Assembly: GCA_950295325.1 (NCBI GenBank)
Contig: OX485808.1
Span: forward strand, 37,905,180 to 37,969,179
Reading direction: 5' to 3'
Length of the DNA: 64,000 nucleotides
From: Polytrichum commune
Taxonomy: Eukaryota; Streptophyta; Polytrichopsida; Polytrichales; Polytrichaceae
The notes under the pieces were generated by a model. The model made no database searches. It saw only the letters and a program-made list of their open reading frames with translations, and was not told the origin of the DNA. Below, in pieces: positions 1 to 22,100 of the stretch. Position 1 is the stretch's first letter. Every line of letters begins with the position of its first letter. The translations under genes and the position numbers were made by a program.

Positions 1-2000
1 AGTTGCATAATTCTTCCGTTGACGCATGACAATTAAGGGGTTAATATCCCAGCAAGTGTAACACACTTTTTTGTTAATCCAAATTCTAAACTTACATAAT
101 GTCACCTTTTGGGAAAAAAAATTGAAAGTTATACTCCCACATAAAATAGTGGTTGTTTGCACATATATATATACATGACTCCTTTACACATTGAGGTCCC
201 CCTTGAGTTGAGGTGATCCAAAGTGATGTGAGAGGTTCGTCATCAATGAGAAGCGTGTTTTTTTTTTGAATTAAATCTTCAACATTCCTTTTAGAGATAT
301 GAACCACCTAAGATATAAGACCATGCCATGGGCCAAGGAATAAATGCACATTAACTTCTACTTGATATTGTGATATGATCTTGTCTTTTTCTCACGGTGT
401 TTTTTAGTCGACCACCAATTATAACATAATAATGTCGCAAGCATAATAATGTCACTTACCTAGTTATAATGAGAAATTACCTATTATTCCATACCCCACA
501 ATACTTTAAAGATGTCCAATACTTACAATATTGTGATAGTATGTTGTGAAATATTTTGTGACTTACAATGAGCGATGCAATATTTTGTGACTTATAATGA
601 GTGATGGAGTAGTTTGCAAAATAATGTCAATCCCGCAGCCCCCATTATGATTCTAAATAATGTTATGAAATGAATCATTTATAGGCCTAGTGGGTATAAT
701 ATCACAAAATATCAATCATTGTTATGATAGTTATGTAATGTCCTTGTTTCTCTCATATTATGTGCTACATTATACTATTGCAATGGTGCAAGCATAGTAA
801 AGTGGACCAAGAAAGTGCTCCGGTATATGAATGCCATGATTTTCTTGGTCAAACCCCTATAAGTAGTAGCAAAATGTTGTTTAAAATATATATAAAAACA
901 TTATCCAAACGATTTTGAGTTTGGAGATTATTGAACTACTATTTAAAATTGGGGTTAAATACATTTGAGTAACCTTTAAGTAACCTTTCCAGAATGTCGA
1001 GCTCCAATCCATGGGTATGACTTGTGGACTTGCCATAAATATTTTTGAAATCACCTTTAAGGAGAATATAATGGCGTAATTTTGGACCGTGTAGCCATAG
1101 ATGTTGGAGGCATGTGGGATTTGTTGTTGGCAATGTTCAAATTTAGTACTTTGGTACTTAGGTTGTCAATCCATGCCTACAACCGACCCTACAATGACAA
1201 TCATATTTTGAGAGTTTGTGATTGACTATGCTAGGTTATAATAAGAATCTATGTGATAGCATGGTTATACTTACGTGAATACCGGTCCCTTAGATGTGCA
1301 CTTTCTAAAGGACATTCGAGGCCGTAAATATGCAAGTCAACCAATACATTAACTGTACAACCACACTTGAAAGGTCAAGTATGAAGTTGAGTTTAGGCAC
1401 ATGGAATGGGATTGAGATATATGTTGGAGTAGGCAATATCAATCAAGTCAAGTGATAGGGTATTTCAAATTCGTGGGATCTCGCAAACAATGGGTTTAGG
1501 GTTTAGGGTTTAGGGTTATTTCTTTCCTTATCATTAGTCTAATTTGGGTCATCATCATAAGTTTGCTCTTCATTCTCTTCTTCTGAGTGATATGTTGGAG
1601 TTACTACACTAAATATTTTAGTTAGTGTCGTATGGTATTTTATGTCATTCTAGCAACATTTCTAGTGACATTTATTGTAATCAAGGTTACAAATATTTGT
1701 CATCCCAACTTACTTTTAGTTCTTCCAAATGCCAATGAATCCAACAAAGTTTGGTATATTTTGCATCCGTACATTTTTGCAATGAAATGTAGTCATGGAT
1801 GATTAAAATTTGGATCATAATCACAATGTCGACAATGTTGTAAATTTGTGATGCCCAATGTTTTTTTTTGAAGGAATGACAAATAATCTTAGGTTTGGAT
1901 TTATTGTTGATGACACTAAACGGGCAGTTGACAATTAGTATTGAGCAACACAAATAGAGTTGATGACTCTAACTACAATTATGTTTATTGTGTTGTGGAG
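1..2000. other. AT-rich intergenic sequence with dispersed repeats
   Basis: I see no gene here. The stretch is AT-rich and its reading frames are short and unsupported. Parts recur elsewhere in the window. The segment near 789-880 resembles 21229-21325. The segment near 60-200 resembles 21930-22050 in the same orientation, while 480-530 matches 21846-21900 in reverse complement. The segment near 1606-1680 resembles 36307-36380. These are best read as old dispersed repeats. Confidence 0.6.
1492..1517 (+). repeat. Short interstitial telomere-type repeat (TTTAGGG)
   Basis: About three and a half uninterrupted copies of the plant telomere heptamer TTTAGGG. It is too short to be a telomere and sits inside repeat-rich sequence. 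It may be a microsatellite or a telo-box-like motif. It is useful mainly as support for a plant source. Confidence 0.75.
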
Positions 2001-3079
2001 GTACATTACATGGATGATGCTCCCGTCTAGGTAGTAACATGACATAGAAGGATGGAATATATGTGGGAGTATTTGGATGTATTGAGGGCCCAGTGGAGGG
2101 GTGGCAAGTGGGTGTGGGTTGACTTCTTTGGTGGATTGCATTAATGGCAATACTTATGATATCAGGGAAAGAATGTGACAACAAGGAATAAGATTTGAAT
2201 TGAGAACATCCACACTCTAGGGTTTCAAGATGTTTCATCGCATTCAAGTATGCCTACCTAGACCATTTTGATATGAGTTCTTAATTGGGTTCTTGATATG
2301 AACACCCGCTTCAACGTATTTGCATCTTACAACATTCTCCAATATCGATGACACATGGAGGATGGAGCCGGCTAGGTAGGAACATGACATAGAAGGATGA
2401 AATATATGTGGGAGTATTTGGACATATTAAGGGCCCAGTGGAACTTTGGCCCGTGGGTGCATAGTTCCCAACCCAGGGGGTGTACTATGACAGACATGTA
2501 CGATAATATGCCAATGCATAGAAGGCTCAAGGGGTGGACGCTCCATACCACGTAGGAACATATTAAAGTGTAAGAAGGGGTGTCACTTGCCTCATACTAG
2601 CACAAAATATACATAAGTGTTAGTTTCATCGTATTCAAGTCTTCATTCATTATTGTCATATGGTGGTAGTCCTCAAGTTCCTAGAACACTCTAAATTGAG
2701 AATTTCGCATGTCTCAAATTCATATATGGACCACAACAACATGGTCTAATGCTTGGGTCTTCCTACCTAAACCACTTTGAACCCGTGTTCTTAATTGGGT
2801 TCTTGATATGTCACACGGAGGATGGAGCCGGCTAGGTGGGAACATGACATGGAAGGATGAAATATGTGTGGGAGTATCTGGACATATTAAGGGCCCAGTG
2901 GAACTTTGGCCCGTGGGTGAATAGTTCCCATCCCAGGGGGTTTACTATGACAGACATGTGCGATTATATGCCAATGCATAGAAGGCTCAAGGGGTGGACG
3001 CTCCATACCACGTAGGAACATATTAAATTGTAAGAAGGGGTGTCACTTGACTCATACTCATACAAAATATACACAAGTG

Positions 3080-3195
3080 AGAGTTATTAATTTTTCTAGT
3101 GTGTATAACTACAAAGGATACAAAGAATTTTGAAATAAATGTAGATGTACACAAGGGGACCCTAAGGTTTCGGAGTTAACTTAACAATGTATGTG
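3080..3195. mobile_element. About 115-bp insertion within repeat unit 2
   Basis: Unit 1 reads straight through the equivalent position (near 2615-2622), whereas unit 2 has about 115 extra bases. A diverged reverse-complement copy of the inserted segment is visible near 54090-54215, where both contain 'gtagatgtaca' followed by 'cctaaggttt'. It is therefore probably a short non-autonomous mobile element. I cannot define inverted ends or assign a family. Confidence 0.45.
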
Positions 3196-3270
3196 TTAGT
3201 TTCATCGTATTCAAGTCTTCATTCATTATTGTCATATGGTGGTAGTCCTCAAGTTCCTAGAACACTCTAA

Positions 3271-3567
3271 GTTCTTAGGTTTTGCTCCTTAGACTGTGTC
3301 TTGGGCGTTGCGATTTTGTCATCGCCGGATTGATGCAACTCTTGATGAGTATATTTGTATGTTAACAAATTATGTTAATGACTATATGTAAATGCAACTT
3401 TTTATTTATACATATTTTTGAGATTGTGTGTGTATTGCCTAATTTTACAAAAAGAGCTACTATATAAGAGGTTTTAAGAATATGCTGAGAACGTATGTGA
3501 TTCCTGCTTGTCACAAAAGGTGCATTCCCTAGGGTTTGCAATTTCTTAAGCACCTCTCAAAGGTCAT
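3271..3567. mobile_element. About 300-bp insertion within repeat unit 2, TAA at both edges
   Basis: Unit 1 lacks this segment (compare 2690-2705). In unit 2 the trinucleotide TAA lies on both sides, compatible with a 3-bp target duplication, but I see no terminal inverted repeats. The insertion contains a 63-bp stretch (3347-3409) that recurs base for base at 9148-9210. Confidence 0.4.
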
Positions 3568-4749
3568 TCGTTAATTTGAGACTTTCGCATGTCTCAAATT
3601 CATATATGGACCACAACAACATGGTCTAATGCTTGGGTCTTCCTACCTAAACCACTTTGAACCCGTGTTCTTAATTGGAGCCTTGATATGTCACACGGAG
3701 GATGCCGCCGGCTAGGTAGGAACATGACATGGAAGGATGAAATATATGTGGGAGTATCTAGACATATTAACCCTTAAAAGAGGTTGCCCCGTTATTGTGG
3801 GGGCAAGTAGACGCCCTGTATTTCGCGCACTGGTGCATTTGGGTGCGGATATAGACCGATTCCCTGCACCGAATTTTATGCAATTTTGTTGGCTTGTGGG
3901 CCCCGAAGTGTAGCAGACTTCGGCGAAAGATTCCCACGAAATTGGTCGTGCAGAGAATTATTTGTGAATTTCTAAGTGCCCGCTGGTGCGGTGGGGTCTG
4001 GAAATGGAATACGTATCCATACTGTGTGTATACGGCTTGGGGTGGGGGTGCGCTGATACGGCGGGTGCAAGCGTGGGTGCGTCCTCTGTGTGCGATGTGG
4101 AGTGCGACAGGCAGTCACCCGGTCACTTTGGTAACCGGGGAAACCTGTTTTAGCCTGCAACCACCTTCTGAGGTGACCTCATGGGCAAGGAGTGTGTGCC
4201 ACATGGACGAATGGGGCGCATCCTCTGAAGTGTGGCAGGACATGGGCCCCTGTCCCACGACAGGGGCATCCCAACCGTAACTCACAGGCTCCCCGCTGCG
4301 GCACGGTGTGTTCCGCTGCGAGGAGTGTGCAAATCCGAGTTCCGAAATTACGGCAATTCTAGTCAGATGTGCGGCATGGAACTGTACACATATATAGCAA
4401 CAATTGCAATTACTTGTCCAAAAATGTTCATACATTCAAAAGCCCGCATACTGTGCGGAAATGTCCAAAATGTGTCTGCGGGATTGGAGCTCTCAACAAC
4501 ACTCCCACCCAATCCCTATACGAAACCCACCCCCCTGAGAACTATGTACATGATCCACATGATTGTGAAACCAGGTTAGCTACAAGTCGGGGAACTAAGT
4601 GCGGTCTATGGAAGGAAGGAAATCGACGCTCTGTTCGGGAGTGTAGAAACGGCGGCAACTATCTGTGACGTCCCTCTGGTATGCAAATCGCGCTCGTTGT
4701 CTCCACGCCATGCCTATCCCTGTTATCGGCAACGAGGACCGTCCGCCGT

Positions 4750-5402
4750 TCACACCCTCCTCACCTCGAAGGCCAGCGGACCAACCTGCGTGAATTGTAC
4801 CGTGTCGCCGAGCTTCAATCCGTTGGCGGTGCAGAATCGTGCCCAGCCCTTCGTGAACGAGAAAATCGTCTGCTTGCCAGCAGTATGCGTGGCTGTCTTC
4901 ACGGAGCATTGCATCGTCGGGCCGTGTAGGGTGTAAAACACACCATCGAACCCTGCCGCTCCGTGAGTGCGCCAGAACGCTGTTGGTACATCCTGCGGAA
5001 ACAGCAAACGATTGAGTCCAGTAATCTTGCGGATGTCCAATCGTGCTTCTCCACGACTCAGCACCGAAGCTGCATGCTGGAAATACCCTGAACTTCCATA
5101 CTGTGTGTGCAGATAGAGGAACCAAATAGTACTGTAAATGTGGTAGGGTTTGCACTCACAATTCTGCTGGAGTCAAAATTCTTCAAGTGCGTCTTCCGAA
5201 TTGTTTTGCAAAATTGGGGTCGATCGTCACTCTGGACATCGGGGAGCACCTTCGAGTGTCTCCTGTGACCATCGTCATCCTCGGCAGGCTCGCGCTCACA
5301 ACCACCCAGCAGCCCGAATTCGACGTCGACCTCCTGTGCCTCCTCGAAGTCTTCGGCAGCGCATCGTTGGTGGTGTGCGACCACCAGACGTCGGTCGTCC
5401 AC
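4750..5402 (-). CDS. B3-type DNA-binding domain protein fragment inside the transposon
   Basis: Two exons on the minus strand: 5402-5160 (5' limit uncertain) and 5076-4750, joined in phase 0 across an 83-bp intron with a GTGAGT donor and TTCCAG acceptor. Exon 1 has an acidic stretch followed by a B3-like opening (RPQFCKTIRKTHLKNF). Exon 2 has the typical B3 close, with GWARFCTANGLKLGDTVQF followed by a short beta strand (LAFEVRRV). The beginning of exon 1 (FLTFEVVDDRR) looks like the end of a preceding B3 domain, so the parent may have had two. B3 domains are plant-specific DNA-binding folds of transcription factors. Upstream the frame runs into the minisatellite at 5445-5620, so the copy is probably a captured, truncated host gene. 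The family call is by eye. Confidence 0.55.
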
Positions 5403-5439
5403 GACCTCGAATGTCAGAAACGCTCCGAGGCCAAGATTC

Positions 5440-5622
5440 TGCAGAGTGGATGTGCAGAGTGGATGTGCAGGAGTGGATGTGCAGATTCTGCAGAGTGGAT
5501 GTGCAGAGTGGATGTGCAGAGATGTGCAGAGTGGATGTGCAGATGTGCAGATGTGCAGAGTGGATGTGCAGAGATGGCCAAGATTCTGCAGAGTGGATGT
5601 GCAGAGTGGATGTGCAGGAAGG
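5440..5622. repeat. Minisatellite based on GAGTGGATGTGCAG
   Basis: About ten imperfect copies of a unit near 15 bp lie inside the TTAA transposon, with interspersed short variants ('gatgtgcaga'). One more isolated unit occurs at 6106-6120. The array lies directly upstream (minus strand) of the B3 coding fragment and interrupts its 5' side. Confidence 0.8.
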
Positions 5623-5624
5623 TT

Positions 5625-6340
5625 CCAGATGTTTCAGCCGACATTCAGGTTCACTGAAATACAATGTTGGAGGTACACTAATCCAAACCCTGAACTGCTC
5701 CACAATGTCTATTTGAAGGCCTCTAAAATGGCCAAAAGACCCTTTGTGGTCATCAAGACCAAGAAGTATGTGCGGCATCAATGAAAAAAAACCCTCAAGG
5801 GAACACCTAATACCCCGGGAGGAATCAGCATAGTAAACATCCAAAACCGTGAAGGGGTTAATAATGCAGATGTGTCTTGGCGGCGATAGATTTTCAGATG
5901 TGTCCTGCTGGCTCAAAAAACTCAGAGCCAGTATGGAAAAATCATGCCGCGGCACAAATTGAGGACACCGGCTCTCACTAAACTGCTATCCCTTACACAA
6001 ACCTGTGTCACCTAAACATCTGGTCTAGGTTGAAATCACCACAGGAGCATAAAGACCAGAGCGTAAAGGCAGTTTTTATAAACATGCGGTTGCCAATCGA
6101 TCCAGCAGAGTGGATGTGCAGGTCGCTCTTGGAAGTCCCAGCCAACATTCAGGTTCACTGAAACACAATGTTTATCGGCACACTAATCCAAACCCTGAAC
6201 TGCTCCACGATGTCTTTTTGCAAGTGATTTCCCAAATGGCCGAAAGACCCTTTGTGGTCATCAACACCAGGAAGCATGTGCGGCATCAACGGGAAAAAAA
6301 CCCTCAAGGGAACACCTAATACCCCGGGAGGAATCACAAC
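5625..6340 (+). repeat. Internal direct duplication of about 200 bp in the transposon
   Basis: The block at about 5625-5825 is repeated at about 6125-6340 with modest divergence. Both copies contain 'acattcaggttcactgaaa', 'ccaaaccctgaactgctcc', 'agaccctttgtggtcatcaa' and end with 'taccccgggaggaatca'. The duplication is direct and both copies lie in the 3' half of the element. Confidence 0.85.
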
Positions 6341-6559
6341 ATGTGACAAAGAACCACAGAGTACTCCACAAAGATCCGGCCACATCCCCTTGTAAATGTG
6401 GATCCTTTAATTCGAATTCTCGGCAACATCCGTTGGCAATGTAGGCCAATAGGGTCGCTCACACCGAGCGAGAATGCACATCGAAATACTATAAGCGAAC
6501 AGTTACTCAACGTCGAGACCCGCTAGCCTAACACCAGCAAATTATTGCAACAACAAACC

Positions 6560-7226
6560 CTAAGCAACCACGCACAAATTGGGAGACGGGGCATGGTGTG
6601 TCCAAGTGCAGGAAGACGAACCTGCGGAGTGATGATGGGCGTCGATGGCGCGCGATCCCGCATTTGCACCGGCTGTGACCCTCCCCGGGCCATCCGCGCG
6701 AGGCGCTTCATGCCTCACACCCAGCGTGGGGAAAACGTGCCCACGTAGAAGGCTAGTCACAATTTCGGGGAACCTCCGGCGCTCACACCAACCCAAAATC
6801 CGCGCCGCGTGCCTGTACCAGAGATAGCGGCACCGCTCTTGCACTCCAAATTGTCCTCTCCGATTCCAGCTGCTGGGGCGTGGCTGCGCAAGGAGTGAGG
6901 ATGCATCCAGGAGCTGCACCGCCCGTGCCGCGCCGACCTCAGAAACCCCTTGCCTGTTGAACCAATTTCGCAATTCAGACTCCAACAAAATGCGCTCTGC
7001 GCTCGCCGAGTCGCTGCCCCTCTCCATGTATACGCGCCAGAGCGCGGTGTGCCTTCCTTGGATATGCAAGCACGGATCCGCAAACGAGTTTGAAAATGGG
7101 TGAAGGACAATCCGCCCAAAACAAAACCTGTTGTTGCGAATCCGGGACACCATTTTCCCCCTCAAGGCCAACCCAGTACCACAGACGTGGTCGTCGCAAT
7201 CGCAAGCGCCTGTCTATCATGTCCAA
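6560..7226 (-). other. GC-rich segment with long overlapping minus-strand frames, unrecognised
   Basis: Several overlapping open frames exist here (for example 7171-6560, 203 codons), but frames of this length arise easily in GC-rich DNA and I recognise no domain. It could be another captured exon of the transposon or simply non-coding cargo. I do not claim a gene. Confidence 0.2.
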
Positions 7227-7690
7227 ATCGCCGGCGCCACGACGTCCTTAGGCCACTCAACAAAAGATGATGATCTCCCTAAACCCTAAACCTGGAGTGG
7301 AGAAGGTGGAGGGCGAAGCGAAAGCGGGGGAATGCCCTCGCGATTCCTTTGCCACACGAGCGTGTCCTCCCAACGACACTGACCGGACGAGGCGGTCACC
7401 AACGGCCATTTGAAATTACGCCGCGTCACCACGAGGACCGTCCCCGCTCAGCTTCCACGTCTACCGTATTCTGAAGGAATACGTATGCGTACACAGAAGT
7501 CACACTTATCTCGTCCCCGACATCGCCAGACAGCTCCAAAAATTAGATGGAAAATCCCACAAGTTGCATTTAGGTATTGCCGACATATCCGTAGTTCGGA
7601 GACACGCCAGACTCGGTGAAGATAGGTCATCAGCAAGTGCCTAACCCTGACCGTAGGCCATATTGGCCTTCAACCTCTTTTAAGGGTTAA

Positions 7691-8660
7691 GGGCCCAGTG
7701 GAACTTTGGCCCGTGGGTGAATAGTTCCCAACCCAGGGGGTGTACTATGATAGACATGTGACAATGTTCACTATGAAAGGAGAGTCCAGACAAGTGGGGA
7801 TCCTACATTTAGCCAATGAATACATACATAATCGACATTTAAGTATATTTTGACAAACCACTTGTCCAAAAATAATAAGGTATGTGCACTCATTACATGG
7901 TTGTGTACTTAGGCTTGGGTTTGATATGGTGATAAACTCATCATGTTGCAGTGTGCTTAGACTTGGGTATGATGTTGTTGCATAAGCAAATCAACTTGAA
8001 TTCTGACGTGATATTATCAAAGAAATTAGGGGGTTGGAGTGATGCCCACCCCCATGCTAGAATTTCAGATTGCACATAAATATAACTATACCCCCCTTTT
8101 TTAAAGAAATCAAGAAATCCAAAGGAACCCATCTTGGCACTAAGATGGTGAATATGAGATTTCTTGATACTTAAAAAAAAATTGCCAACACATTTGGGCT
8201 TTTGCTTGACATTAAAATTTGAACCTATATTGTGGGGGTGGGGATCACTCCAACCCCCTTTCAATCCTTGGCTAGGCTTATGCTTGGGTTTGATGTGGCA
8301 TTAGCAAATCAATTTGAATTATGATGTAGCATCAGCAAAGTAATCAGGGGCCTAGAGTGATGCCCACCTGCACACCATAATTTCATATTACATGAATGTA
8401 AGTAAAGTTCAAACATGTGGGCAAGGAACTTTGGGAATTTGTTTTTAAGAATACATCAACAAATTCAAGAAACATAATCAAGCACCAATAGGGTCTTCTG
8501 TGATTTTTATTTAATTTTAAAGAAAAATTGTCAACATATTTGGCTTCTTTTCATTTACATTGCATTTGAAACTCTAGTGTAGGGGGGGTAGGCATCACTC
8601 TAGTCCCCCTTTCCAATGCTTGACTAGGCTTATGCTTGCGGTTTGTTGTGGCATTACACT
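7691..8660. repeat. Repeat unit remainder followed by two diverged about 340-bp repeat copies
   Basis: 7691-7760 is the right-hand part of the repeat unit split by the transposon. From about 7905 to 8640, two diverged copies of another repeat follow. Each carries 'gcttgggtttgat', 'gcaaatcaa.ttgaatt' and 'gagtgatgcccacc' and ends in a 'ggggta/tgggg..catcactc' segment. A partial third copy lies near 9060-9140. I see no gene. Confidence 0.6.
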
Positions 8661-8835
8661 CATGAGGTTGTTGTGTACTTAGGCTTGGAACACAATATTC
8701 ATTAAAATGAGAGTTTTCCAGTGAATTGAGAGTACATAAAGCAACCTATTAATCCAAGAATGAAATGAAAACCACTGGATAGCTATAGAGCACAAGTAAA
8801 AAAATAACATTTGATTTTCCGCCATAAATTCCACC

Positions 8836-8950
8836 GTAGTTTCCATTAAAATGAGAGTATGTTAAGCTGGGAAATCGACTCATTTAGGTCGACTCAACCT
8901 AAATGAGTTGATTTTCCAACTTAACATACTCTCATTTTAATGGAAACTAC
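8836..8950. repeat. Near-perfect foldback: 54-bp inverted arms with 7-bp loop
   Basis: The left arm is 8836-8889 and the right arm 8897-8950. They differ at only three of 54 positions around a loop at 8890-8896. A transcript from either strand would form a long hairpin. It may be a small foldback transposon or a young small-RNA-type hairpin. The sequence 'attaaaatgagagtt' near 8701 suggests a partial relative just upstream. Confidence 0.9.
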
Positions 8951-9147
8951 ACGTTTGAAGTATAATCTAGTATTTATCAACCTAACATGACTTTTAGGTG
9001 TCCAGGTGGCCAATATTATTTTGAGAGGATCCCACTCTCTCAAAATATTGAATATCGTGTTTTGGGTATGATGTGGCATTAGCAAATCAATTTGAGTTTT
9101 GATGTGGCATTAGCAAAGCACATGAATGTGAATAAAATCCAAACCCA

Positions 9148-9210
9148 GAGTATATTTGTATGTTAACAAATTATGTTAATGACTATATGTAAATGCAACT
9201 TTTTATTTAT
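9148..9210 (+). repeat. 63-bp segment identical to 3347-3409
   Basis: The segment starting 'gagtatatttgtatg' and ending 'actttttatttat' is present twice, 5.8 kb apart in direct orientation, with no mismatches. Sequence on either side does not match. This indicates a recent copying or insertion event. Confidence 0.85.
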
Positions 9211-9560
9211 TACCAAGTGCTGAAAATTATGTTACCAATACTTGGACATATTGCTAAGTGATATTAATTATCTCACTAATACCCAGATTTCGTACTAAGC
9301 ACTGATAATTTTCTTACTAACTCCCACCTATCTTACTAGGACGTAGTTAACCAAATCTTAATACGTAGTTATCTTACTAATACGCAGTTATCTTACTAGC
9401 TAATTATCTTACCAATATTTAAATATCTTACTAAGTGCCAATAACTATATCACTAATACTTACTTATCTTACTATGTACTACTAATTAATATACGAATGT
9501 GATGCCTACATTACTAAGTACTAATAATTCTTTATCACTACCTCCCTAAACCATCATACC
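9211..9560. repeat. AT-rich degenerate tandem repeat ('cttactaa')
   Basis: Short degenerate repeats around 'atcttactaatac' recur every 20-40 bp. I see no gene. The stretch separates the upstream repeat cluster from the presumed promoter region of the large gene. Confidence 0.6.
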
Positions 9561-9699
9561 GCCCAAACCCCCTCCGCATCGTCCTTAAGCCGCCGATTCC
9601 GAAATCCCTTCGCATCCCGAGATCTCATCCACCACGTCCCTTCGTACTAATCACTCATTATGTGGCCTTTTACTTCCACCATCCCGTCATTATGGCGTT

Positions 9700-10185
9700 T
9701 CTTGAATGGGACCCACTCTCTCATTGTCTCTCTCTCTCTCATTCTCCCTCACTCTCATTCTTCCTCTCTCTCATTCTCCTCTTTCCACCATTGAAGCTTC
9801 CGACCCAAAGCTCCACTTCAAAACTCCCTCTTCTTTCTTCCACCACTTTTCTGGACTCTCTTCATTCTTTTTGGACTATCTTCATTTTGGACTCTCTTCA
9901 TTCTTGCTGGAATACCACTTTTCTAAATTCTTGTCATTCTCTTTCTCTCCACATTTCTTCATTCTCTCCATTCTCTTGCTCCTCCTACTTTTCTTGTTTC
10001 TCTTATTTCTCCACCCTCTACTCACTTTCCTGATTCTCATTCTCTTTCTTGCTTCAACTGACTTTCTTGATTATCTTCTTTCTGTAGCTTCTACTCACTT
10101 CTCCATTCTATTGCTTCATCTTGCTTCCACCCACTTCTCCATACTCTTGTTCAAATCCAGAATGTGGCATTGCTGAAATGTGGAG
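9700..10185 (+). promoter_or_regulatory. Long pyrimidine-rich tract upstream of the large gene
   Basis: Nearly 500 bp dominated by C and T (many 'ctctctct' and 'ttcttc' runs) end about 480 bp before the first candidate start codon (10665). CT-rich tracts are common near plant transcription start sites and in 5' leaders, so this may mark the promoter or leader. The two open frames across it are low-complexity and not credible proteins. Confidence 0.4.
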
Positions 10186-10664
10186 AAAAGTGAGAGGATG
10201 AAGAAAGATTGGAGAGAAGTCCAATTCTGGTACTTGTAAGCAATCATTTCATTCTCCTAATCTTCCATTCTATTCATGCTTTGGTTGCATTGTAGTGCTT
10301 GTGAAGTCCAATTCTGGAATTGTTGTTTGTGGTGAACCAGGGTTTGTTTGTTTCTGATGGTAGGGTTTCAATTGTGAGAATGTGGTGCATTTTTGGTGCA
10401 CTAGGGTTTCAATTCGTTGGAGAATCTCACACCCAAATATGTTAGAGAAATTTAAGTGAGTTGTGTGATGCTTGGTTGTGATGAATTGAGTGAAATGCTA
10501 GAGGAATGCTCAAACTAGGATGCAATGAGGGTGTGTTCCTAATAATGTGAGACCAAAATTTCTTGTTTTTCTGCTTTGAGAGCATGAATGTATTTCACAT
10601 GGAACTAATCTTTTAGGGTTTTGTTATGTGCAGAAACAAACATTGGATTTGAACAACATTAGGC

Positions 10665-10686
10665 ATGGCTCCACCAAAGAATCCTG
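10665..10686 (+). CDS. Alternative first coding exon (MAPPKNP) of the histone-mimic gene
   Basis: A 22-nt coding segment begins with ATG in a good plant start context (GGCATGGCT) and ends at a strong GTGAGT donor, leaving phase 1. That is the same phase as the H3-tail exon at 11433-11463, so it can splice directly to the acceptor at 11566 and give MAPPKNPVSGG in place of MARTKQTARKVSGG. If it were instead spliced to the acceptors just before the H3-tail exon, the frame would stop. The two exons are therefore best seen as alternative first exons, or this one as a short upstream frame in the leader. Use of either exon is inferred. Confidence 0.45.
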
Positions 10687-10758
10687 GTGAGTATGCATAA
10701 ATTCTCATTACCTTGGCCCTAGGTGTGAAAGGGGTTGTCTGGAAGTGGTTATTTCAAG

Positions 10759-11252
10759 GGCCCACGGGTGTTCACCCGTGGGCCTCCTCACTCGCAACTG
10801 GTGGTGGGGTATGCCCACGGGTGTTCACCCGTGGGCCTCACCACTACCAACTAGTGAGGTATGCCCACGGGTGTTCACCCGTGGGCCTCCCCACTCCTAA
10901 CTGGTGGTGGGGTTGGCCCACGGGTGAACACCCGTGGGCCTCCGCACTCCCAACTGGTGGTGGGGTATGCCCACGGGTATTCACCCGTGGCCCTCCCCAC
11001 TCCTAACTGGTGGTGGGGATTGCCCACGGGTGAACACCCGTGGGCCTCCCCACTCGCAACTGGTGGTGGGGTATGCCCACGGGTGTTCACCCGTGGGCCT
11101 CCCCACTAGTAATTTGTGAGGTATGCCCACGGGTGTTCACCCGTGGGCCTCTACCCTAGTAATTTGTGAGGTATGCCCAGGGGTGTTCACCCGTGGGCGT
11201 CCCCACTCCTAACTTGCGGTGGGGTATGCCCACGGGTGAACACCCGTGGGCC
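10759..11252. repeat. Array of ten 22-bp palindromes, 50-53 bp period
   Basis: Ten copies of an inverted repeat with half-sites CCCACGGGTG / CACCCGTGGG around a TT or AA centre start at 10761, 10814, 10864, 10917, 10970, 11023, 11076, 11126, 11176 and 11229. Spacing is 50 or 53 bp. The intervening 28-31 bp are also conserved ('cctccccactc..aactggtggtggggtatg') and contain a weaker CCCCAC/GTGGGG inverted pair. The copies at 10970 and 11176 each carry a half-site change. The array lies in the intron between the two alternative first exons. It resembles a CRISPR only visually: the spacers are repeated, not unique. Confidence 0.95.
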
Positions 11253-11432
11253 TTTCCATTCTCTTGGAGGGGGCCATTTTTGGGTAGTTTTCTTTTGGCT
11301 TTCTTAGCTAACACAACATTGTTCCACCACAGGTTTATGTTTTTGAAGGTTATAGACAAGACCATGTGGTAGACAGTTGGTGTTTTATTCAGGTGCATAG
11401 AGGTGTCGCAGTGACCTCTCATTTGAATATAG

Positions 11433-14400
11433 ATGGCAAGAACTAAGCAAACGGCTCGTAAAGGTATAACCACAATACCTATGTGCACGTCAATGTTATA
11501 TGAATTCTAAAATTATGAAAATTGTACACTATGCGGAGTACTAACACGTGCATTTTCGTCTTCAGTATCTGGGGGCGTGGGAAGAGCGGTGAACTACGAT
11601 ATTGAGGTGTTGGGCCCAGAGTTGCAATGGTTCATGCAGTACAGTGGTTTCGGGGAGACAACGGTCCTCTCGCTATACACGAAGACTGGGCCTAATTCCA
11701 CGTGGAGGAAGTTCCTAAAGGCAAAGCATGTGTTGGACATCCAAGCGGATGGGAGCCGCGTTCTGATTATGTGTAAGTCGTCAGAACGCAAGAAGGACTT
11801 CAAGGTTGCAGGATTAGTGGATACATTTTCGTATGCGGATGTGAACGAAGAACTCAACAATGAGGGAGAGAACATCCGCTCATTAAACGGTGAATTTCTC
11901 ACCTATTGTATAGAATACAGCGAGACCAACAAGCATACAAGGTCCGCGGAGGAGAGATCAGTCATGATCGAGCAAGACTACAAGGCTGCTCTACGGCGAG
12001 TGACGGTAATAGTTGAGGAGGCGAAGGCGGCGAGGTTGGAGGAAAATTTGAGGAAGAAGCAAATCCGAGACGGGAAGAGGAAGGATCAAGGTGAGGAACG
12101 TGCTATGTCGTCTAGGAAGAAGACAAGACCCGCCGAAGATCATGAAATGATTGTCGAAGACACACCCGCCGAGGATGTTGTGGCGAAGAGAGGCAAGAAG
12201 AAAATTGTCGAAGATAGTCCATTTCTTGAGCTCGAGAAGATTCCGAGGCGATCAATTCATGGGCCTCCAGAAAAATCGGTTGGAGACAGATTGATGGATA
12301 TGGAATTGTTTAAGAACAAGTACAATAGGGTTTGGATTTTTGGTGAAGGCGTCAATGGATTTGTAAATATTGCAAATATAGAGCGGGGCGATGCAGGGTA
12401 TAACTGCCGGCCCATATCCGACGCACATTTGAGGGAGATGAAGACATGGTTATTCAACTATGCCTTCATACCGAAGATCCATCCCAACTTCTTGACAATC
12501 GTTCCATCGGATAGGCGAAGGAAACCTACAAATTTTGAGGAGGTGAAGAACAAATCGTTCCACGTGGTGAATGGACAACACACGTTAGCAGCATGTTTGG
12601 AGTATGTGAATGATGCGGCCAGCACAGATGAGATGAAGAGGTTTTTCTCGACATGGCCCTGTAATGTGGTCTGGGCCCATGAAGGTGATGACGACCCTCT
12701 GTTTCACCTTTCTGGTGTTCTAAACCTGGATAGTGAATATAAGAAACATTTCCCATCATTTACGGAGTGCATTCAGCATGCCAAGAAGACGTGGATTAGG
12801 CGAGGAAGGCCTGACCGAACCGTACGCGAAAAGTCCAACAATGCGGAAGCGTTTAAGAAGTGGAAGGTATATTCCAAACTTGTGACTTTTGAATTTATCA
12901 ATTGCTTGATCCCCACGGATGTTCACCCGTGGGCCACTATGATGCTGTTGGTGATTGATAGAAATAGAAGGAGTTGTATACATGGGGATTGATAAATGGC
13001 CGCTATTTGATACAGGCATTTGTTACGTGCGTCATGTGGACGTTCCGCGTGGAGAGGGAGACCAACCTCATCATGGAGCACGTGTTGCCCGTGTTGAGAG
13101 ATGACATATGGGAGAAGTGGGAGAAGATATTAATGGAATACGAGAGTGACGAGTACATCGACCCAAAGACCGGGCTTCGTATGAAAGATACGAAGGGTTT
13201 CAAACCAAGGAAGGTGGTCAAGAACGATCTGAAGCAGTTTCGAGGCTTGACAGAGATGGAGCTCGACAAGGCAGCGGATCAAATCCTCTCCGCCAAAGAT
13301 GGAGAGGATTACCCTAGGCATACCTTGAAAACTGTGCGCGATTGGGCGGTGAATAGGAAGAAGAAGAATGAAACCTATATCGGAATGGCACAGTGTTTAG
13401 ACCCGACCCCAATGTACATCGTCAATGTGGAGCAGAAGGAGACTATTGATCGGGATTTGTGGAGATTGTGGAAGCGAGTGAATAACTTTGGAAAACTCCA
13501 GCGAGAACGACTTGTGGACTTGCTTGGAGCGGAGTACCTTATTGCCGCCATGAACCCAACAAGGAAGAGACTACCTATTCCCGACCGGTTCAAAGAAGGA
13601 GTGCGAAACATACTAGGTAGCCATAATACGGAGGTTTCGCCCGCCCATGTCGTGTTGTCTATTGACAACAATTACGCGCTCAGCGGTGGGACAGTGATCG
13701 CACCAGTACTGCATGCTTACATGGACACATGTTTTCTGCCCGGAGTCCAGGCGGGAATAGGTAGTGGAGGTCGTATGATGGAGGTTGTCGACTCCACACT
13801 GCAAGGTCTTCGTCGCGCTTTTTCTGGCATTTTGGAGTCCCCCCAATTGTGGACTGTGATTTCGGAATATCCGGACCGGCATTTCATACACAATGTTCTG
13901 AAGACACACTTGCCGAGAAATGTGAGATTTTGTGACGCAGTCTACCATGGAACCAAAGAGGAGAAAATTGCTTCTCGCGATTGCTTCTTCGAAGCAAGTG
14001 CTCTTCGTGTTACAACCTGCATTTTTCCTAGTAGAGGCGAGGCAAGTTCGGAGGTGGCTGTGCTGCTCTGTGGAGGACGGAAGATGTTGGACGTGCATGA
14101 GCCTGGGCGATATGCACGTTATTCAGAGAAAAAGGCTTATTCCAATGAGGAGGCCAAGTCTTTATTCAAGGGGGAGTTGAGAATGCAGACCTATATAGAT
14201 ATCATCAAGCCTTCTTGTCTTGAGGGGTCATTTTTTCTGAATATTTGTGGAGGCAACAAGGTGCATATAGTGGCACATGTAAGTATTGAGCATCTTCTCC
14301 CAATTGTGATATTTTGGATATACCACGTTATGTAGATGATGTCCTAGAGAGCCATATCCTACACCAGGTAGGAAGGCCCACGGGTGAACACCCGTGGGCC

Positions 14401-17400
14401 TGGACATGCACCTGCCTTATAACCCCATGTTTGATAGCTCTCCAGATTGTTATTTGTTTCCGAATCAATAAGTTGGGAATTTCACAATAACGAATTTGAT
14501 ATTTAATGGCTTTCTCATTCAATGGATGTGTTCAGGCCTTGGGTATGAAGGTAGTGAATATTGTGCCCGTGGAGATGGTGGAGGTGGCGAAGACAAAAAT
14601 GATTTCCGCACTTGACTGGAGCCTACAAAGGTGGAATGAAGAAGGTAAAATCGCTGCCCGAGACCCGGAAGAAGAAGGAGAAGATGATATCGATATTGAA
14701 TCGATTATTGAACGCGCATTGCGTCGCAAGCCTGTCAATGATGCTCCCCTGGAGGAGGAAGAGGATGAAGAGGATGAAGAGGAGGCGGTGAATGAAGACA
14801 ACCCAGTTATTAACCTGGGGGAGTCTGAAAAGGAAGTGGAAGAGGAAGAGCAAGAGCAAGAGCAAGAGCAAGAGCAAGAGCAAGAGCAAGAGGAAGAGCA
14901 AGAGCAAGAGCAAGAGCAAGAGGATGCTGTGGCCGTTAACGCCGCAATGGCGGACGCCATGGCGGAGCTCCTCTCGGAGGCCGAGGAGGAGGCCTTTAAT
15001 TTCAAAACTTCAATGGTGATTCAGGAGGACATGCCACAGGTCGAGGTTCCCCACGGGTGTTCACCCGTGGGGGGTGTGGAGGGGGAGAGGTTGGGGGAGG
15101 CGGTGGGGCAGGAAGTTGTTCATAGGGAGCCTGAGCATAGTGTTAATATCGCGGTGGGATCTTTCTCGTCTGGGATCCCATCTACACCCGGACGTGGGTT
15201 TGTTGAAGTTGATACTTCTACACGAAATGAAGAACAAGCAGATGTTCGTCCTATGGGAGAATCCGAGGAGGAAGAGCGTCCACGGTCCGCGGAAGAGCCT
15301 CAATTGGAGGCTAATCCTGGCAGAAGGTCTACATCGAGACCATCTGCAAGGAAGAAGGTGAAAGCTCCCCGAAGGGGGAGGTCATCTCTACGTCCCCCTA
15401 GAGTTGTAGAACTTTCTCGATCTGCGGAGGCCATGGATCATTCTAATCTTGAACGCGAGGTTGAATCTGGCGAAGTAGCGGATGTGGAGGATGAACTTGT
15501 GGACGTAATCATGTCTGAAGCTGCGCATGACGAAGGTGTGAGCACGGATTTGAACGTCAGCTCACCTGTGGAGGAGGTCGCCGCTGCCGTGCTCGAAGTC
15601 CTAGGCCAAGGACGAATACACAGAGATTCCCCTGGTGTTGTGGTTGCAGAGGAGCCCACAGCTAGTGAAGCAGAGGTGATCATGCGAAAACAAGTCATAT
15701 GCTTGGATAGTGATGATGATATGCCCGAGAAATGTGTGGAACTAGACGTGAGGGTGAAGGTTAGAGATCGAGTTCCACATCGGGTTCGGGGGACGTTTGC
15801 GGACTACATGATGGACGATTCCGAGGACGAAGACTATGGGATGCCAGGGTACAACAGAGTTAAACTCAACTTTGTTGATTACCCTCACCCTATGCTTGCT
15901 TCGAGACCCGACACGGGCAAGGAATCGGATGGGAAGGAGAAGGTGCATTTTGCACCATTTGTGGACAAATTTTTGGCAAAGGTTCCCGAGAACGTGCGAT
16001 TGAATCTTGCGCATTTATACAAGTCGTATGACTATCACAAGATGTTCGCTTATCTCTCCACTCCAGCGTTTTGTGAAGCAGTGAAGGTGAAACATGTTCT
16101 ACATGCCGCTTCATTGAAGAAAATGAGAAAGAGATGGACCGCGTTTGAAGCTCCAAAACATCGTGGAGGACGAGGTCAATTCCCGGGATCCTCCGCCGCT
16201 CAAGCTGGCAGTGTTGTGGATTCTACCATGGAGATCATCGACGTCAGTGAAGTGCCAGATTCTCCAAGGAGGGATGTCCATGTTGGCCCTGTTGCTGAGG
16301 GTCAACCGTCTTCCTCCAATTTGGTTGCGGCAGAACGGGAGGTCATTCCCCCGAGTTCTCATGACGACCCTGCACTCCTAGACCGAGCTCCAGGTATCAT
16401 ATATGGTGTTATTTGATTGGAATTGGTCCCACGGGTGTTCACCCGTGGGTCCCCTGGTTTGTAGTTTACAATTTCCACGCAAATTGTTAGATCATGTCCA
16501 ATACTTGATTGATATTTTGCCCACGGGTGTTCACCCGTGGGAGAGTATGGTTTTCAGCATGTGGATCTCATAAGTTATGTGTTGATGTGGTCATAGGTCC
16601 TACAGCCACGGCCGAATTACCTCCTTCGGTACGATGTTCTCCCCTAGCTCGCAAAACTAATCAATAAATGTGCAAGCATTATTTTCTATTGCGGATGCAT
16701 ACATATGTCAACCCAATCTGTTGTTTCCTAGTCGAGAAATATCCATTAGAATCTATTGTTTCCTTAGATTAAAAACCTTTAGAATGACTTGAGATTTTGT
16801 CATCGCCAGATACTCACCTCTCCAAGCACTGTTGTCCATCGGAGAGAGAAGATATGGTTAGTGTTGGATGTCAACGGGATCCTTGTGAGGTCAACAAAGT
16901 GCGACAATGTCAACACCAGGAAGTCTCTTGAATCACAATATAGCCCCCTTATAACTGGGGAGTTGGCTCCCCTCTTTCTCCCATATAGTGCCTTAATACC
17001 TAGGAAAGGACTGGGACGCTTTCTGCGTTTTGTTCTTTCGAACTTCCATGTTGTCATCTGGTCGTCGAAGCTCATGAAGAATCTCCAGCCAATTGTGCGA
17101 TACTTCTTCAAAGGGTGTAGACATCCAGAGTATGTCATTGGGCAAGAACTATGTGACACTCTGAAGGATGAGAGAGGACAAGTTCTTCCTAGTCCTATGA
17201 ATTCCGATTCAAGCTTCTTCGTGAAAGACCTGAGCGCATTTTTTGAGTGGAGCCGGACACATCCTCTGCCGCACATGAAGCAACCCTCTCATAGGACCAC
17301 ACTACTTGTTGATGACTCCCCTTACAAATGCATCCCAAACCCTCCTGGGAGCTACGTCAACCCTCCCCCATTTCTGTCGAACCAAAGCTTGGACACTCTG

Positions 17401-17574
17401 CATAATTACCTACAAAGGCTCTTGAGTTCTGAACAATATGTGCCAGATTTTGTGGGGAGCAACCCTTATCCATCAGGCCAGGGACCCTTCAATCTAGAGT
17501 TGCCAAACTCTCAGATTTATAAGCAATCATTAGCTAGACATACAAGTCTGAAATCTGCCCGTATGGTCCCATAG
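11433..17574 (+). CDS. Histone H3-tail mimic / ParB-like / methyltransferase-like / FCP1-like multidomain protein
   Basis: Six exons join in phase with GT-AG introns: 11433-11463, 11566-12866, 13016-14278, 14536-16393, 16597-16628 and 16810-17574. They give 5250 nt (1749 residues). Exon 1 encodes MARTKQTARK, identical to the start of histone H3 through K9, followed by VSGGVG. Basic nuclear-type stretches lie near residues 160-220 (KRKDQGEER, SSRKKTR, KRGKKK). A ParB-like region near 285-350 contains VVNGQHTLAACLEY. Residues about 645-880 resemble a beta-class DNA methyltransferase, with VVLSIDNNY where DPPY is expected and FFLNICGGNK...ALGMKVVNIV at the motif I position. Exon 4 is very acidic with a Glu-Gln run. 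The C-terminus resembles FCP1/HAD phosphatases (WLVLDVNGILV, LLVDDSPYK) with the second catalytic Asp replaced by Asn. No expression evidence is available. The intron phases make the model strong; the functions are inferred. Confidence 0.8.
12912..12933. repeat. Intronic palindrome copy (intron 2)
   Basis: One copy of the 22-bp palindrome with a single change in the left half-site (CCCACGGATG), located inside the intron 12867-13015 of the large gene. Confidence 0.9.
14377..14398. repeat. Intronic palindrome copy (intron 3)
   Basis: A perfect copy of the palindrome with an AA centre, inside intron 14279-14535 of the large gene. Confidence 0.95.
14850..14922 (+). repeat. Coding (GAGCAA)n microsatellite, Glu-Gln run
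   Basis: A hexanucleotide repeat of GAGCAA lies in exon 4 of the large gene and encodes an alternating Glu-Gln stretch within an already acidic segment. The length is probably polymorphic. It keeps the frame because the unit is six bases. Confidence 0.9.
15050..15071. repeat. Palindrome copy inside coding exon 4
   Basis: A perfect TT-centred copy of the palindrome lies in the open frame and is translated as PHGCSPVG between acidic and Gly/Glu-rich segments. No convincing splice signals remove it. The frame is open on both sides, so either it was inserted without breaking the protein or it is an original site. Confidence 0.9.
16428..16541. repeat. Two intronic palindrome copies (intron 4)
   Basis: Two palindromes, at 16428-16449 and 16520-16541, both TT-centred and with intact half-sites, lie inside intron 16394-16596 of the large gene. 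Confidence 0.95.
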
Positions 17575-17810
17575 GCGCAGATGTCTGTGTAGATCCCTTG
17601 TTGGGGCCGCAACTCGCTCGTACATTGTATGTGAAATAAGTGGAACTAAAACTTTTTGGACTTTTTGGAAGTTGCTCTGGTTTTGTGGACTTATTTCATG
17701 CAAACATGATATGGTGATGGATGTATGCCACTCGGATTCTACTACCTTGCAACACTGTTGTGTTAGAGAAGTTTCGACTATTTACAACCACATTGAACGT
17801 TTGGCATTAT

Positions 17811-19167
17811 CCCACGGGTGTTCACCCGTGGCAATGTGGTGGTTGATTCAATGAATGTACCAGAACACTTGGACAATGTTAGTTGACAACTTGGGAGTTT
17901 GGGTTGTTATGGGGAACATTAATATGTAGGACTTAGTCGGCTATAATTCAATTATTTTTGCACATGTTCATCTTGCACCCACTGGCTCCTCTTGCATATA
18001 ATGTCCTGCTTCCATGGAATCTTATGTTCTTGTACCATAACAGCATTCCCCATTTCCAACGCGACCTAAGAACTATATTGCCACTCCACCTCGCGGACAC
18101 CGTCCTCCGGATGCTAACGCCGACTTCGCCGAAGTGACATCTCCATGCCCTAAGGTAATTTATTTTCCACATGAATCTCATTTTTTGTGGTTGTGTTTCG
18201 TCCTGGGGATTCTAATATCATTTTGGCCTATGTTGTGTTAGACACATATGCTCCAAACAAGCGATGTTGCGCTTGCGGTGGCTGTTCCGGTCGCGGTCGT
18301 GGTTGCAGCTCCGGTCACACGCGCTCGTGTGAAGAGACACCTTTCTCTCCAAACCACACAGCCTAGTGAGCCCACGGGCTCGGGAAATAGTTCTGGATGT
18401 TGGAGGTGTAGTTCACCCAATACCACCTCATCCATGTCTGATTACATGGCTGCAAGGGTGAAACAACTTCGAGAAGCTACAGCTTTGACGGCGGAGAAAA
18501 AACGGCTTGAAGAACTCAAGTGCAAGCAATGTAGTGTAGCTCAAAGGATACCCCATGACAAGATGTTGAAAATGATTACTGATTCATACTCCTCTTGTAG
18601 ATAGCCGGACCTTTATGGTTATAGATTGTCTACGGGTGTTCACCCGTGGATACAACAATTCATCTACTTTGTGACATATTTTGTTCACACTGTGCCAATT
18701 TTTATCAAATCCAAATGATGTTTTGACCCTTAGTTGTGTAGTCGGGTATGACTTGTAGACCTTCCTGCAAGTGTTATGGATCTTGCATCGTGTGTTGCAT
18801 GCCGTTGGTTGGTCACGGGCGTTCACCCGTGGTTGGATGTTTTTGTATTAAGTGCCCATGATGGTTTTTATGATTACACCCATTATATTTGCATACATTT
18901 GTTCACATGCGCATGGTTGTTCCTTAGTGGTGTCGACTTATGTTGTGTTATGGATATAGGTTCATCTGTTGCGGGGTGTTGGTTGGTCACGAGTGAACAC
19001 CCGTGGTTACAGGTGGGCTAAGTTTCACTTTCGGCAAGTACAAGGCATTCATCTCACTTATATATATACACCAATGTGCATGAAATAGTGTGTTAGTCTA
19101 TGTCAATGACCTTCCTCTTGTTCTAAACCTTGTCAATGATGGCAATTCACGGGTATTTACCCGTGAA
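17811..19167. repeat. Decaying palindrome copies downstream of the large gene
   Basis: Five further copies lie 3' of the stop codon: 17811-17831 (near-intact), 18630-18650 (TACGGGTG left half), 18813-18832 (TCACGGGCG), 18987-19006 (TCACGAGTG) and 19146-19167 (TTCACGGGTA with compensating TACCCGTGAA). The outer bases drift while the GGGT/ACCC heart is mostly retained, and in the last copy both arms changed together. No copies are visible past 19.2 kb. Confidence 0.85.
18044..18604 (+). CDS. Possible small two-exon gene with C-terminal coiled coil, 5' end unknown
   Basis: Two segments join in phase 0: 18044-18154 (acceptor ATAACAG, donor AAG/GTAATT) and 18242-18604 (acceptor TGTTAG, stop at 18604). 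The product would contain a Pro-rich segment (RPKNYIATPPRGHRPP), an Ala/Val-rich stretch with basic residues, a Cys pair (GCWRCSS) and a helical, charged C-terminus (VKQLREATALTAEKKRLEEL). A TAA lies in frame just before 18044, so an upstream exon or a different start is needed. It could be an alternative 3' part of the large gene, a separate small gene or a remnant. I do not recognise the family. Confidence 0.3.
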
Positions 19168-19169
19168 GC

Positions 19170-22100
19170 ACGTTCCCAATGCACGTTCCCATCGGTACGA
19201 ATTGTCTCATAATGGTCCAATTGGCTCATTTTAGTTAATATCCCCATCTTGCCAATATATTGTAGGCTATGTTTAGGATGACTTCATGTTATTGTCATCC
19301 ATATATTGAATCGAGACAATGGAAAGTCTCAAATTACTTAATATAGTGTTTCTATTTAATTGTTGTTGGTAAAAAGAAGATATATAATAAAAAAATTATG
19401 GCATTGCATAACTCCAATTGTAAGTGCCACCAATGAATAGTGTCGTGCTGATGAATCAAATCTCAATATGGAACCCACGACACAAGCAAGGATGTCTTCC
19501 TTTTAAGAAGCAAAGTGCAAATGTTGATGGACCCTAAAAAATATAGGGCAGGGACACTTTGTCTACCTGAATGGAAATTCCAAATCAATTTTTCGAAGTT
19601 TCACCTCGAAACATGTTTTTTTATAGTATCTTTCACCTTACAATCCATGTGTTCACAAAGTGGAAAGTTGAAGGTCCATAATTCACCCTTTGGCTAAAAA
19701 CACACTAGGTACATGATGAAGGGATAACATTTTGTGACACCTATGCAAAGAAAGTGTATATATATATACAATTCAATGGTTTTTGAAAAAAATTAAATCT
19801 AATTTCTTCTAAATTGAGGGTCACGGACCCAAATTTAGTTTGTTTAGACCAATTGCATTGATTTTGTAACAAACTTGGGAGAAACAAGAATGAATGGGTG
19901 CCTATAAGCATATCTCTCATCCGTCCATGTTGGAAAACCTACCCTTCTATATTTGTGGTTGATTCTTGGGGCGGGCACTTAAGGCCCATTCACATGGGGG
20001 TTCAAGTTTCAAGTTCCACTCATGTTAGCAAGTTCCAACATGGAGGGAAGGTCCGAACTATTGAGCCTCAAGAAACCATTAAAATATGGTGTATTATCAT
20101 TGAAGACATGTATTGATTATTTAATGCAAAAACATTCGTAAGACTTGTTTTAAGAGTTGGGTCTAGCTTTTTGCTTGACCCAACTCTCAACACAAGTCTC
20201 ACCTCCAAAAAAGTGTTGCCATGTAGGTATCCCTGTCATACTTAGGACTTTGGACTTGGGACCCCGCTTGGGAAGCGCACTCATTGTTAAAAGTATGGAC
20301 ACACGTGGGTGCACGAAAGGGGTATCAATTGTGCCTAGGGGTTACAAAATATACATAAGGTATGGGTATTATTTATTCTAACTTTGTAAGTATACTAGGC
20401 ATATTATTCATACAATCCTAGTTGTAGTTCTATGTTTAAGTTCATAGTCAATTATAATGAAGTGCATAATCTATAAGAGGTCCAAATGAATATTTCATCC
20501 AATATGTGAACCACATTCATCCATAAAATTTAAGGTTTAGGATGAGAGGGGGAAAATCACTTTTTGGAAGCCCTAAGGGTTTCTTATTGTGGACCTTGCA
20601 GGTGAAGCGAGGGTGTAGCTCGTAGGTGGTTTTTCTTCTCTTCTTCTTGTGGTTGCTTCTTGTTCCAATATATGTCTTGTCATGGTCACCGGCTCCTACA
20701 ATCCCCAATCTTATTTTTTAGGTGTTGCTTATATTGTCCAAGGATAGGCTCACAAAGAATTAAGTCTAGTTTGTTATATGCCAAACCTAAAGTTCGTTTG
20801 TCTAGAGACGGTGATGATGATTATTCATTGAAATTGGGATGTGATTGTACGGTATCATTTATCTCTCATGGAGTACTTGAAGGAGTCAAGAAGAGAGGGA
20901 GAAAAACAAGTTGGCCAAAACATTAACCACCAAGACTTGGTATTTGAGAAAGTTCTATAGGATGCACCGCAAAATTGGCAATAGGTGGATTGAGTATTGA
21001 CAACCAATAGACCTCTTGGACTGGCCTTCTCATATGGAAATAGGGTTATGCTGGTATCACATTAAGAATGGGTCAATGTGAATCTATGATTTGACGGATC
21101 ATTTGATGGTAGAGTTAGAAACCATCATGGCATTAGCTACAATAACTTATATTGGAAAACCAAATTTGGACGAATTGCATCCAATGGATGAACAAATTTT
21201 CAATGATAAATAAATATGTCTTGGGTGCAAGCATGGTAAAGTGGACCAAAAAAATGCTCTAGTACACTAAAACCATAATGTTTTTGGTCAAAGGCCTTAA
21301 AGTAGTAGCAAAACGTTGTTTAAATTGGATTTCTTTTCATGATGATCTTTGTTCTGTGTTGAATACTCAAATGTAGAAAATGAAGTTGAAATCTTCAATA
21401 CTTATCATTAAAAGCATTTCAAATGTTGCTCACTAGATTAAGATTTTGCAAATTTTGGTATCAAATCATAAAATGAGTAATCTCCAACCTAAGCACCAAT
21501 TTTATGGTGCTTTCATCGGATGAATGAGAGGTACGTTCGTATGCAACAATCTCCTCTCACCCTTGAAAAAGCAAGTTTTTCCACACCCCCATGACATGTG
21601 GCAAAATGCACATCAATGGCCATAATGATGCCACAAGCTAAATAAGATGCAAATATTTTCAATGAAATAGTGATTGAACATGGAAGATCAATGTGGTGAA
21701 CATTAATCCTCTCATTACTGCACCCTCGGGGGGGGGGGTAGTCATTGGTTGGAGTAGCAATATACGTGCGAACAAATGATAGGGTATTTTAAAAACATGG
21801 GGGCAAAAAAATATAAATGGACTTAAGAGTAATATAGGGTATCAAAAATGGCACTGGACATCTTTAAAGTATTATAGGGTATGTAATAATATGTAATTTG
21901 GAATTATAAGTAATGCGAGCCATTTTTCTATTAACCCAAAGTAGAAATTTACATAATGATAGCATGTGAAAAAAAAATGAGAGTAATACCCCCTATAAAA
22001 TAGTGGTTGTTCGCACCTATATCCTTAACTTTTTAACACACTGCCCCCCCCCCCCCGAGACTGCACCCAACTTAGATTATTCTTGCCTATCGAGTTAACT

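Follow-up and report, generated by a model that had tools for sequence, protein, structure and literature searches.

Can a protein that is not a histone begin with the exact N-terminus of histone H3, and if so, what kind of gene carries such a tail? The question is raised by a short exon in Polytrichum commune (Polytrichopsida), in a stretch of 64,000 nucleotides (nt) of contig OX485808.1 (assembly GCA_950295325.1, positions 37,905,180 to 37,969,179 of the forward strand), which we call the window and to whose numbering all positions refer unless a locus is named. An earlier note on this DNA had proposed a histone mimic built into a large chromatin protein. One half of that proposal stands, in that a tail beyond chance, kept by selection, opens a long protein at what is probably its true N-terminus, whereas the other half does not: the tail gene is no host chromatin gene but belongs, as an accessory gene, to a DNA transposon that is present in many copies and has terminal inverted repeats (TIRs).

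The tail exon and its copies

The sequence ATGGCAAGAACTAAGCAAACGGCTCGTAAAG at 11433-11463 encodes MARTKQTARK, that is, residues 1-9 of H3 after the Met, and ends on a single G, leaving phase 1. Once the following intron of 102 nt (GTATAA...CTTCAG, GT-AG) is removed, the frame continues in phase as VSGGVGRAV, so that exon, intron and continuation read just as the earlier note had described them. Its further contention that the match exceeds chance is likewise supported by a composition model, which gives a probability of about 1e-12 per site, and by the recurrence of the tail in 43 of 44 copies. When every ATG of the window was scored for H3 residues, the tail ATG was the sole one with more than four of nine (9/9 at one site, against 4/9 at one site and 3/9 at 18). 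The window copy has an in-frame stop immediately 5' of this ATG, and in 42 of the 43 tail-bearing copies such a stop precedes it by 1-3 codons; according to the gene model, in which the start codon is predicted, the tail peptide forms the N-terminus of the protein. Because an acceptor-like site, TTYATTCAG, is conserved 31-42 nt 5' of the ATG, exon 1 probably starts at 11393, with a leader of 40 nt before the ATG. Within intron 1 we noticed, by eye, a motif resembling the branch point TACTAAC.

11393..11432, plus strand: probable 5' leader of exon 1, placed after the TTYATTCAG acceptor-like site (41 of 43 tail-bearing copies)
11433..11463, plus strand: coding part of exon 1, Met and ARTKQTARK with the first base of the next codon (43 of 44 copies)
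11464..11565, plus strand: intron 1, 102 nt, GT-AG, TACTAAC-like motif at 11539-11545
Tail peptide in synthetic form: ARTKQTARKVSGG

The genome (407.8 Mb in 64 contigs) was searched with the protein encoded by exon 2, and 97 of the 740 first-look candidates were scored, so that the counts are lower bounds. There are at least 100 places, seven of them at 98-100% identity, many at 82-87% and groups at 71-73%; below this level lie pieces and decayed copies, together with 25 distant relatives at 23-29% identity. The 5' side was read in the 30 best copies, in ten members of more diverged groups and in four others, 44 in all; 36 of 40 loci were parsed together and the other four read separately. The tail exon is present in all but one of these, L035. 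The tail is exact in 30 copies; ten carry A7T, and T6I, A7S and the combination of R2K with A7T occur once each. K4, R8 and K9 are thus found in 43 of 43 tails and R2 in 42, and T3, Q5 and R8 are fixed throughout. The donor of intron 1 reads GTA in 36 of the 36 parsed copies, and its acceptor is present in L042-L049.

A genome-wide search for exact MARTKQTARK-coding starts returned 54, against none for a reversed-pattern control. Judged by position, seventeen of them belong to H3 genes (full-length histone matches in 14 cases, L009-L011 in the other three), all with a CGN codon at R2; the remaining 37 are transposon copies, with AGA at R2 and each beside an exon-2 place, comprising the 30 exact tails among the copies read and seven further copies. 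Starts with the exact tail are therefore more numerous in transposon copies than in H3 genes of the same genome. No such start was found at any of the 25 distant relatives.

Beyond this genome, a search of a protein collection gave six relatives, all of them again among the 45 that an alignment search returned at E values of up to 10; none of the names is informative. One of them, P0003, starts with MARTKQTARK, its reading frame running through an open intron 1; since its identity to the closest among 40 own-genome copies compared is 81%, it represents a separate lineage. The other outside relatives have their starts within intron 1, exon 2 or exon 3 and are therefore uninformative on exon 1. 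Among the distant relatives in the genome, the 5' side was read in four of the 25 (L059-L062), and no H3 tail was found upstream; these four have an ATG of their own (MEREVLW) directly after an acceptor-like CAG. Together with 21 further places they share a similar layout, the identity of 23-29% extending over residues ~200-430. The absence of the tail from these four implies that it was gained in, or retained only by, one lineage. As to relatives that keep the protein while lacking the start, which the earlier note had named as a point against it, one was found among the 44 own copies (L035), P0003 has the tail, and the four distant relatives lack it.

Selection on the tail peptide

Rates of synonymous (dS) and non-synonymous (dN) change were computed for one representative of each of four subfamilies, S1 to S4 (L012, L019, L043 and L048, the last contributing only 873 nt owing to an internal stop), all with exact tails, which is the majority state in each group. 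In exon 2, S1 and S2 differ with a dS of 0.52 and a dN of 0.082, a ratio of 0.16, while in the remaining five pairs dS either stands at 2.78 or is undefined, with dN at 0.18-0.21. In exon 1 the four representatives show 2-5 synonymous differences and no non-synonymous one over 23 non-synonymous sites; by simple arithmetic, about 4.7 non-synonymous changes would be expected between S1 and S4 at the exon-2 rate. The surroundings are far less similar: S1 and S2 are 0.72 identical over the upstream 300 nt and 0.84 over intron 1, and every other pair is 0.51-0.61 identical over these regions. Across six representatives, two of them with A7T, codon positions 1 and 2 are identical in nine of ten codons, codon 8 standing at 0.73, and third positions range from 0.27 to 1.0, with leader and intron at 0.51-0.52. 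That the first two codon positions are kept while the third position, the leader and the intron vary points to selection on the tail peptide rather than on the RNA.

The carrier transposon and its palindromes

The element that carries the tail gene has inverted repeats of ~35 bp at its ends, starting with ATRGGGATATTAAC. Its right end, at 19247, is common to four copies, and its left end to three of the five copies in which it was sought (it was not found in L065 and L066). Both copies with two ends in hand are flanked by 4-bp target-site duplications, CTTG (C6) and ACTC (C3). From the coordinates, the element is 24.2 kb long here, or 20.3 kb without a nested insertion of 3.9 kb; given a 4-bp overlap at the junction in the C3 copy, the nested insertion may also have made a 4-bp duplication.

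1..19247, plus strand: portion of the transposon covered by the window; its left end (L057:5035) falls 4946 bp beyond the window's left edge
L057 5535-8528, minus strand: region of the DUF7869 partner frame, then a second frame, SH3- or BAH-like by eye
3771..7686, no strand given: nested insertion, 3.9 kb, GC-rich, absent from the C3 and C7 copies
10760..11253, plus strand: tandem palindrome array just upstream of the tail gene, ten copies of the 22-bp CCCACGGGTGNNCACCCGTGGG (up to 2 mismatches) at 50/53-bp spacing
16428..18650, plus strand: further single palindromes at 16428, 16520, 17811 and 18629 (0, 0, 1 and 3 mismatches)
19214..19247, plus strand: right TIR, matching the left end over ~35 bp at 88%, then 4-bp CTTG

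The layout is one of two divergent genes, with palindrome arrays upstream of both. The partner gene, on the minus strand in the left part, has an open frame of 691 residues that matches DUF7869 in Pfam (3.2e-46), and D...DN...HTHEDVD motifs resembling those of a DDE nuclease can be recognised in it by eye. Pfam reported DUF7869 alone in this left gene and no transposase of the Mutator-like (MULE) type, and a search of solved structures with the DUF7869 protein gave no credible match (best E 0.27). That it partners the tail gene in an element with TIRs and 4-bp target-site duplications suggests that DUF7869 is a transposase. Elsewhere in the window, transposase-like frames lie on the minus strand at 49592-50368 and 61623-62384 (CENP-B/pogo-like and MULE-like by eye), and kinase-like open frames at 55-58 kb.

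The palindrome array upstream of the tail gene ends 180 nt 5' of the tail ATG, and the DUF7869 frame has an array of its own on its 5' side (L057 9025-9400). With up to 3 mismatches, the window holds 17 copies of CCCACGGGTGNNCACCCGTGGG, where none are expected; all lie within the element, in 8 kb, and none were found elsewhere in the window. We compared the palindromes at 22 chosen loci, of which 20 could be read (L050 and L051 were not oriented). Those of S1 and S2 have the form GGGTG..CACCC and those of S3 and S4 mostly GGGCG..CGCCC, the S3/S4 copies read being mostly CCCACGGGCGNNCGCCCGTGGG with a few mixed sites; the change from T/A to C/G between subfamilies thus affects both arms. The distant relatives L059 and L060-L062 have other palindromes. 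Because both arms changed together between subfamilies, recognition by a dimer is a plausible reading, and the pattern suggests a dimeric DNA-binding protein, encoded by the element, that co-evolves with the palindromes.

The rest of the tail protein is spread over the following features.

11566..12866, plus strand: exon 2, with a PH/FERM-F3/PTB-like domain at ~11604-12026 (weak structural match) and a conserved VNGQHT region
12867..13015, plus strand: intron 2, holding one palindrome (12912)
13016..14278, plus strand: exon 3, conserved, no known domain found
14279..14535, plus strand: intron 3, holding one palindrome (14377)
14536..16393, plus strand: exon 4, acidic and of low complexity, one in-frame palindrome (15050); 3' limit approximate
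16810..17574, plus strand: exon 5, NLI-interacting-factor (NIF)-like phosphatase domain (PF03031, 6.6e-12)

We could not reproduce the earlier note's model of 1749 residues: the length comes to 1484 residues for exons 1-4, with a further 254 should exon 5 be joined, across a last junction of uncertain phase. No Pfam family was found in exons 2-3, and no match to Histone (PF00125) in exons 2-5. The NIF/FCP1-like domain at 16810-17574, whose exon seems to supply the C-terminus of the tail protein, reads DVNG at the catalytic motif, which in NIF-like phosphatases is usually DxDxT, and it is possibly inactive.

Possible roles and origin of the tail

The explanation that we favour, and consider moderately probable, is that the H3 tail of the transposon protein works by engaging host H3-tail-binding proteins at the element's own DNA. 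After removal of the Met, ARTKQTARK would be presented as H3 presents it; the tail protein or the DUF7869 protein would bind the palindromes as a dimer, and many nucleosome-free H3 tails would be displayed at the two promoters and in the introns of the element, where host proteins that read, write or erase H3-tail marks could take them as bait or decoy. Possible targets include an H3K9 methyltransferase, or H3K4 readers and writers, and the chromatin of the element would thereby stay out of silencing. That the effect runs in this anti-silencing direction is a guess, to which we give slightly less than even weight. More tentative again is the wider proposal of a new group of plant DNA transposons, combining DUF7869 with a PH-like accessory protein, that would practise palindrome-targeted anti-silencing, with an exact free H3 tail in one lineage and host H3K4/H3K9 enzymes diverted from nucleosomes.

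Several observations weigh against engagement of H3-tail-binding proteins. A7T occurs in 11 of the 43 tails, one of them also with R2K, and A7S and T6I in one each, so a perfect H3 match is not required; in the 82-87% group A7T is a G-to-A change at a CAG, which decay of a methylated cytosine could have caused. Several copies are interrupted by stops, and the decayed copy L067 has lost the acceptor of intron 1. Structural models of the tail protein are poor outside one domain. Outside the genome the tail is known from P0003 only, and a search for tail-bearing proteins of 272-864 residues, in which ten candidates were scored, again yielded only P0003.

Alternatively, the tail might tether the transposition machinery to chromatin via host proteins, directing integration or nuclear retention. 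Chromatin tethering is known for integrases, and the same element encodes the transposase-like DUF7869 protein, but the palindromes, arrayed 5' of both genes and present within introns, suggest that the site of action is the DNA of the element itself, and a mimic would be a competitor for a reader and would not itself read the mark; neither argument is decisive, and we regard tethering as unlikely. We find it a little harder still to believe that the nine residues were kept as a signal for nuclear localisation, N-terminal stability or RNA/splicing, their likeness to H3 being incidental or a relic of capture. While the peptide is indeed basic and A7 is changed in 12 of 43 tails, an RNA element does not fit conservation at codon positions 1 and 2 and not at position 3, and a nuclear-localisation signal would need neither the exact order nor the N-terminal position, nor T3, Q5 and R8 fixed in every tail. 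As for a chance match or a wrong splice model, the tail exon is part of a predicted gene model, but its recurrence with synonymous change across diverged copies, the conserved donor and the in-frame stop just upstream largely refute this reading, which we hold to be very improbable.

On the origin of the exon our judgement is evenly divided between capture from the 5' end of a host H3 gene and independent evolution. Nine identical residues at the N-terminus speak for capture, and plant transposons do take up host sequences, as described in the accessible part of a review of the subject (PMC13317346). Against it, 11 host H3 loci share no more than 22-23 of 30 nt with the window exon (7-8 differences); no intron follows K9 in the H3.3-type loci, since L009 and L010 run through to KQLATK before one appears, and L011 beyond that; and R2 is AGA in the 37 exact transposon copies versus CGN in the 17 H3 genes. 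From these mismatches, the place of the intron and the R2 codon it follows that the capture is ancient or the peptide convergent.

Histone mimicry is already known in viruses and a few host proteins, as is sequence-specific anti-silencing in VANDAL transposons. If our favoured explanation of the tail, engagement of host H3-tail-binding proteins, is true, an exact H3 tail on a transposon protein, selected across saturated divergence, would join the two, and a mobile element could fight or exploit histone-tail signalling directly. In practical terms, antibodies to modified H3K4 or H3K9 could recognise the tail protein in this plant.

The closest parallel in arrangement is VANC of the Arabidopsis VANDAL elements, an anti-silencing accessory protein of a plant DNA transposon, as the accessible parts of two papers describe it (PMC5735166, PMC10398659); the VANDAL motifs are tandem repeats enriched in upstream regions and introns, and differ by family together with the protein, according to the accessible part of PMC5735166. 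Here, too, a plant DNA transposon has an accessory gene, element-specific motif arrays lie in non-coding regions (with one copy also in exon 4), and the motif shifts between subfamilies in step with a diverged protein. In contrast to VANDAL, the partner gene is DUF7869 and not a MULE transposase, and the motif is a 22-bp palindrome; the H3 tail, moreover, has no counterpart mentioned for VANC in the accessible parts of those papers. Nor was any Pfam family found in exons 2-3 of the tail protein; the likeness is one of arrangement.

For the tail itself, PAF15 provides a precedent, as the H3-like N-terminus of this non-histone protein is recognised by the H3 reader UHRF1, according to the accessible part of PMC7060239. 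The tail protein resembles it as a non-histone protein with an H3-like N-terminal sequence, which in the present case would engage a reader. PAF15, however, is a host replication factor whose sequence matches H3 in part, whereas here H3 1-9 is exact and sits on a transposon protein. Other histone mimics, such as influenza NS1 and the G9a substrates (ATF7IP), are short motifs, internal or C-terminal; they have in common with the tail a short H3-like peptide in a non-histone protein, and in the viral case a selfish element as bearer, but the tail is N-terminal and has a micro-exon of its own. In the SNAG-domain repressors SNAIL and GFI1, an N-terminal H3-like peptide occupies LSD1, an H3-binding enzyme; they share with the tail protein the position of the peptide at the N-terminus, but are host transcription factors and only loosely H3-like.
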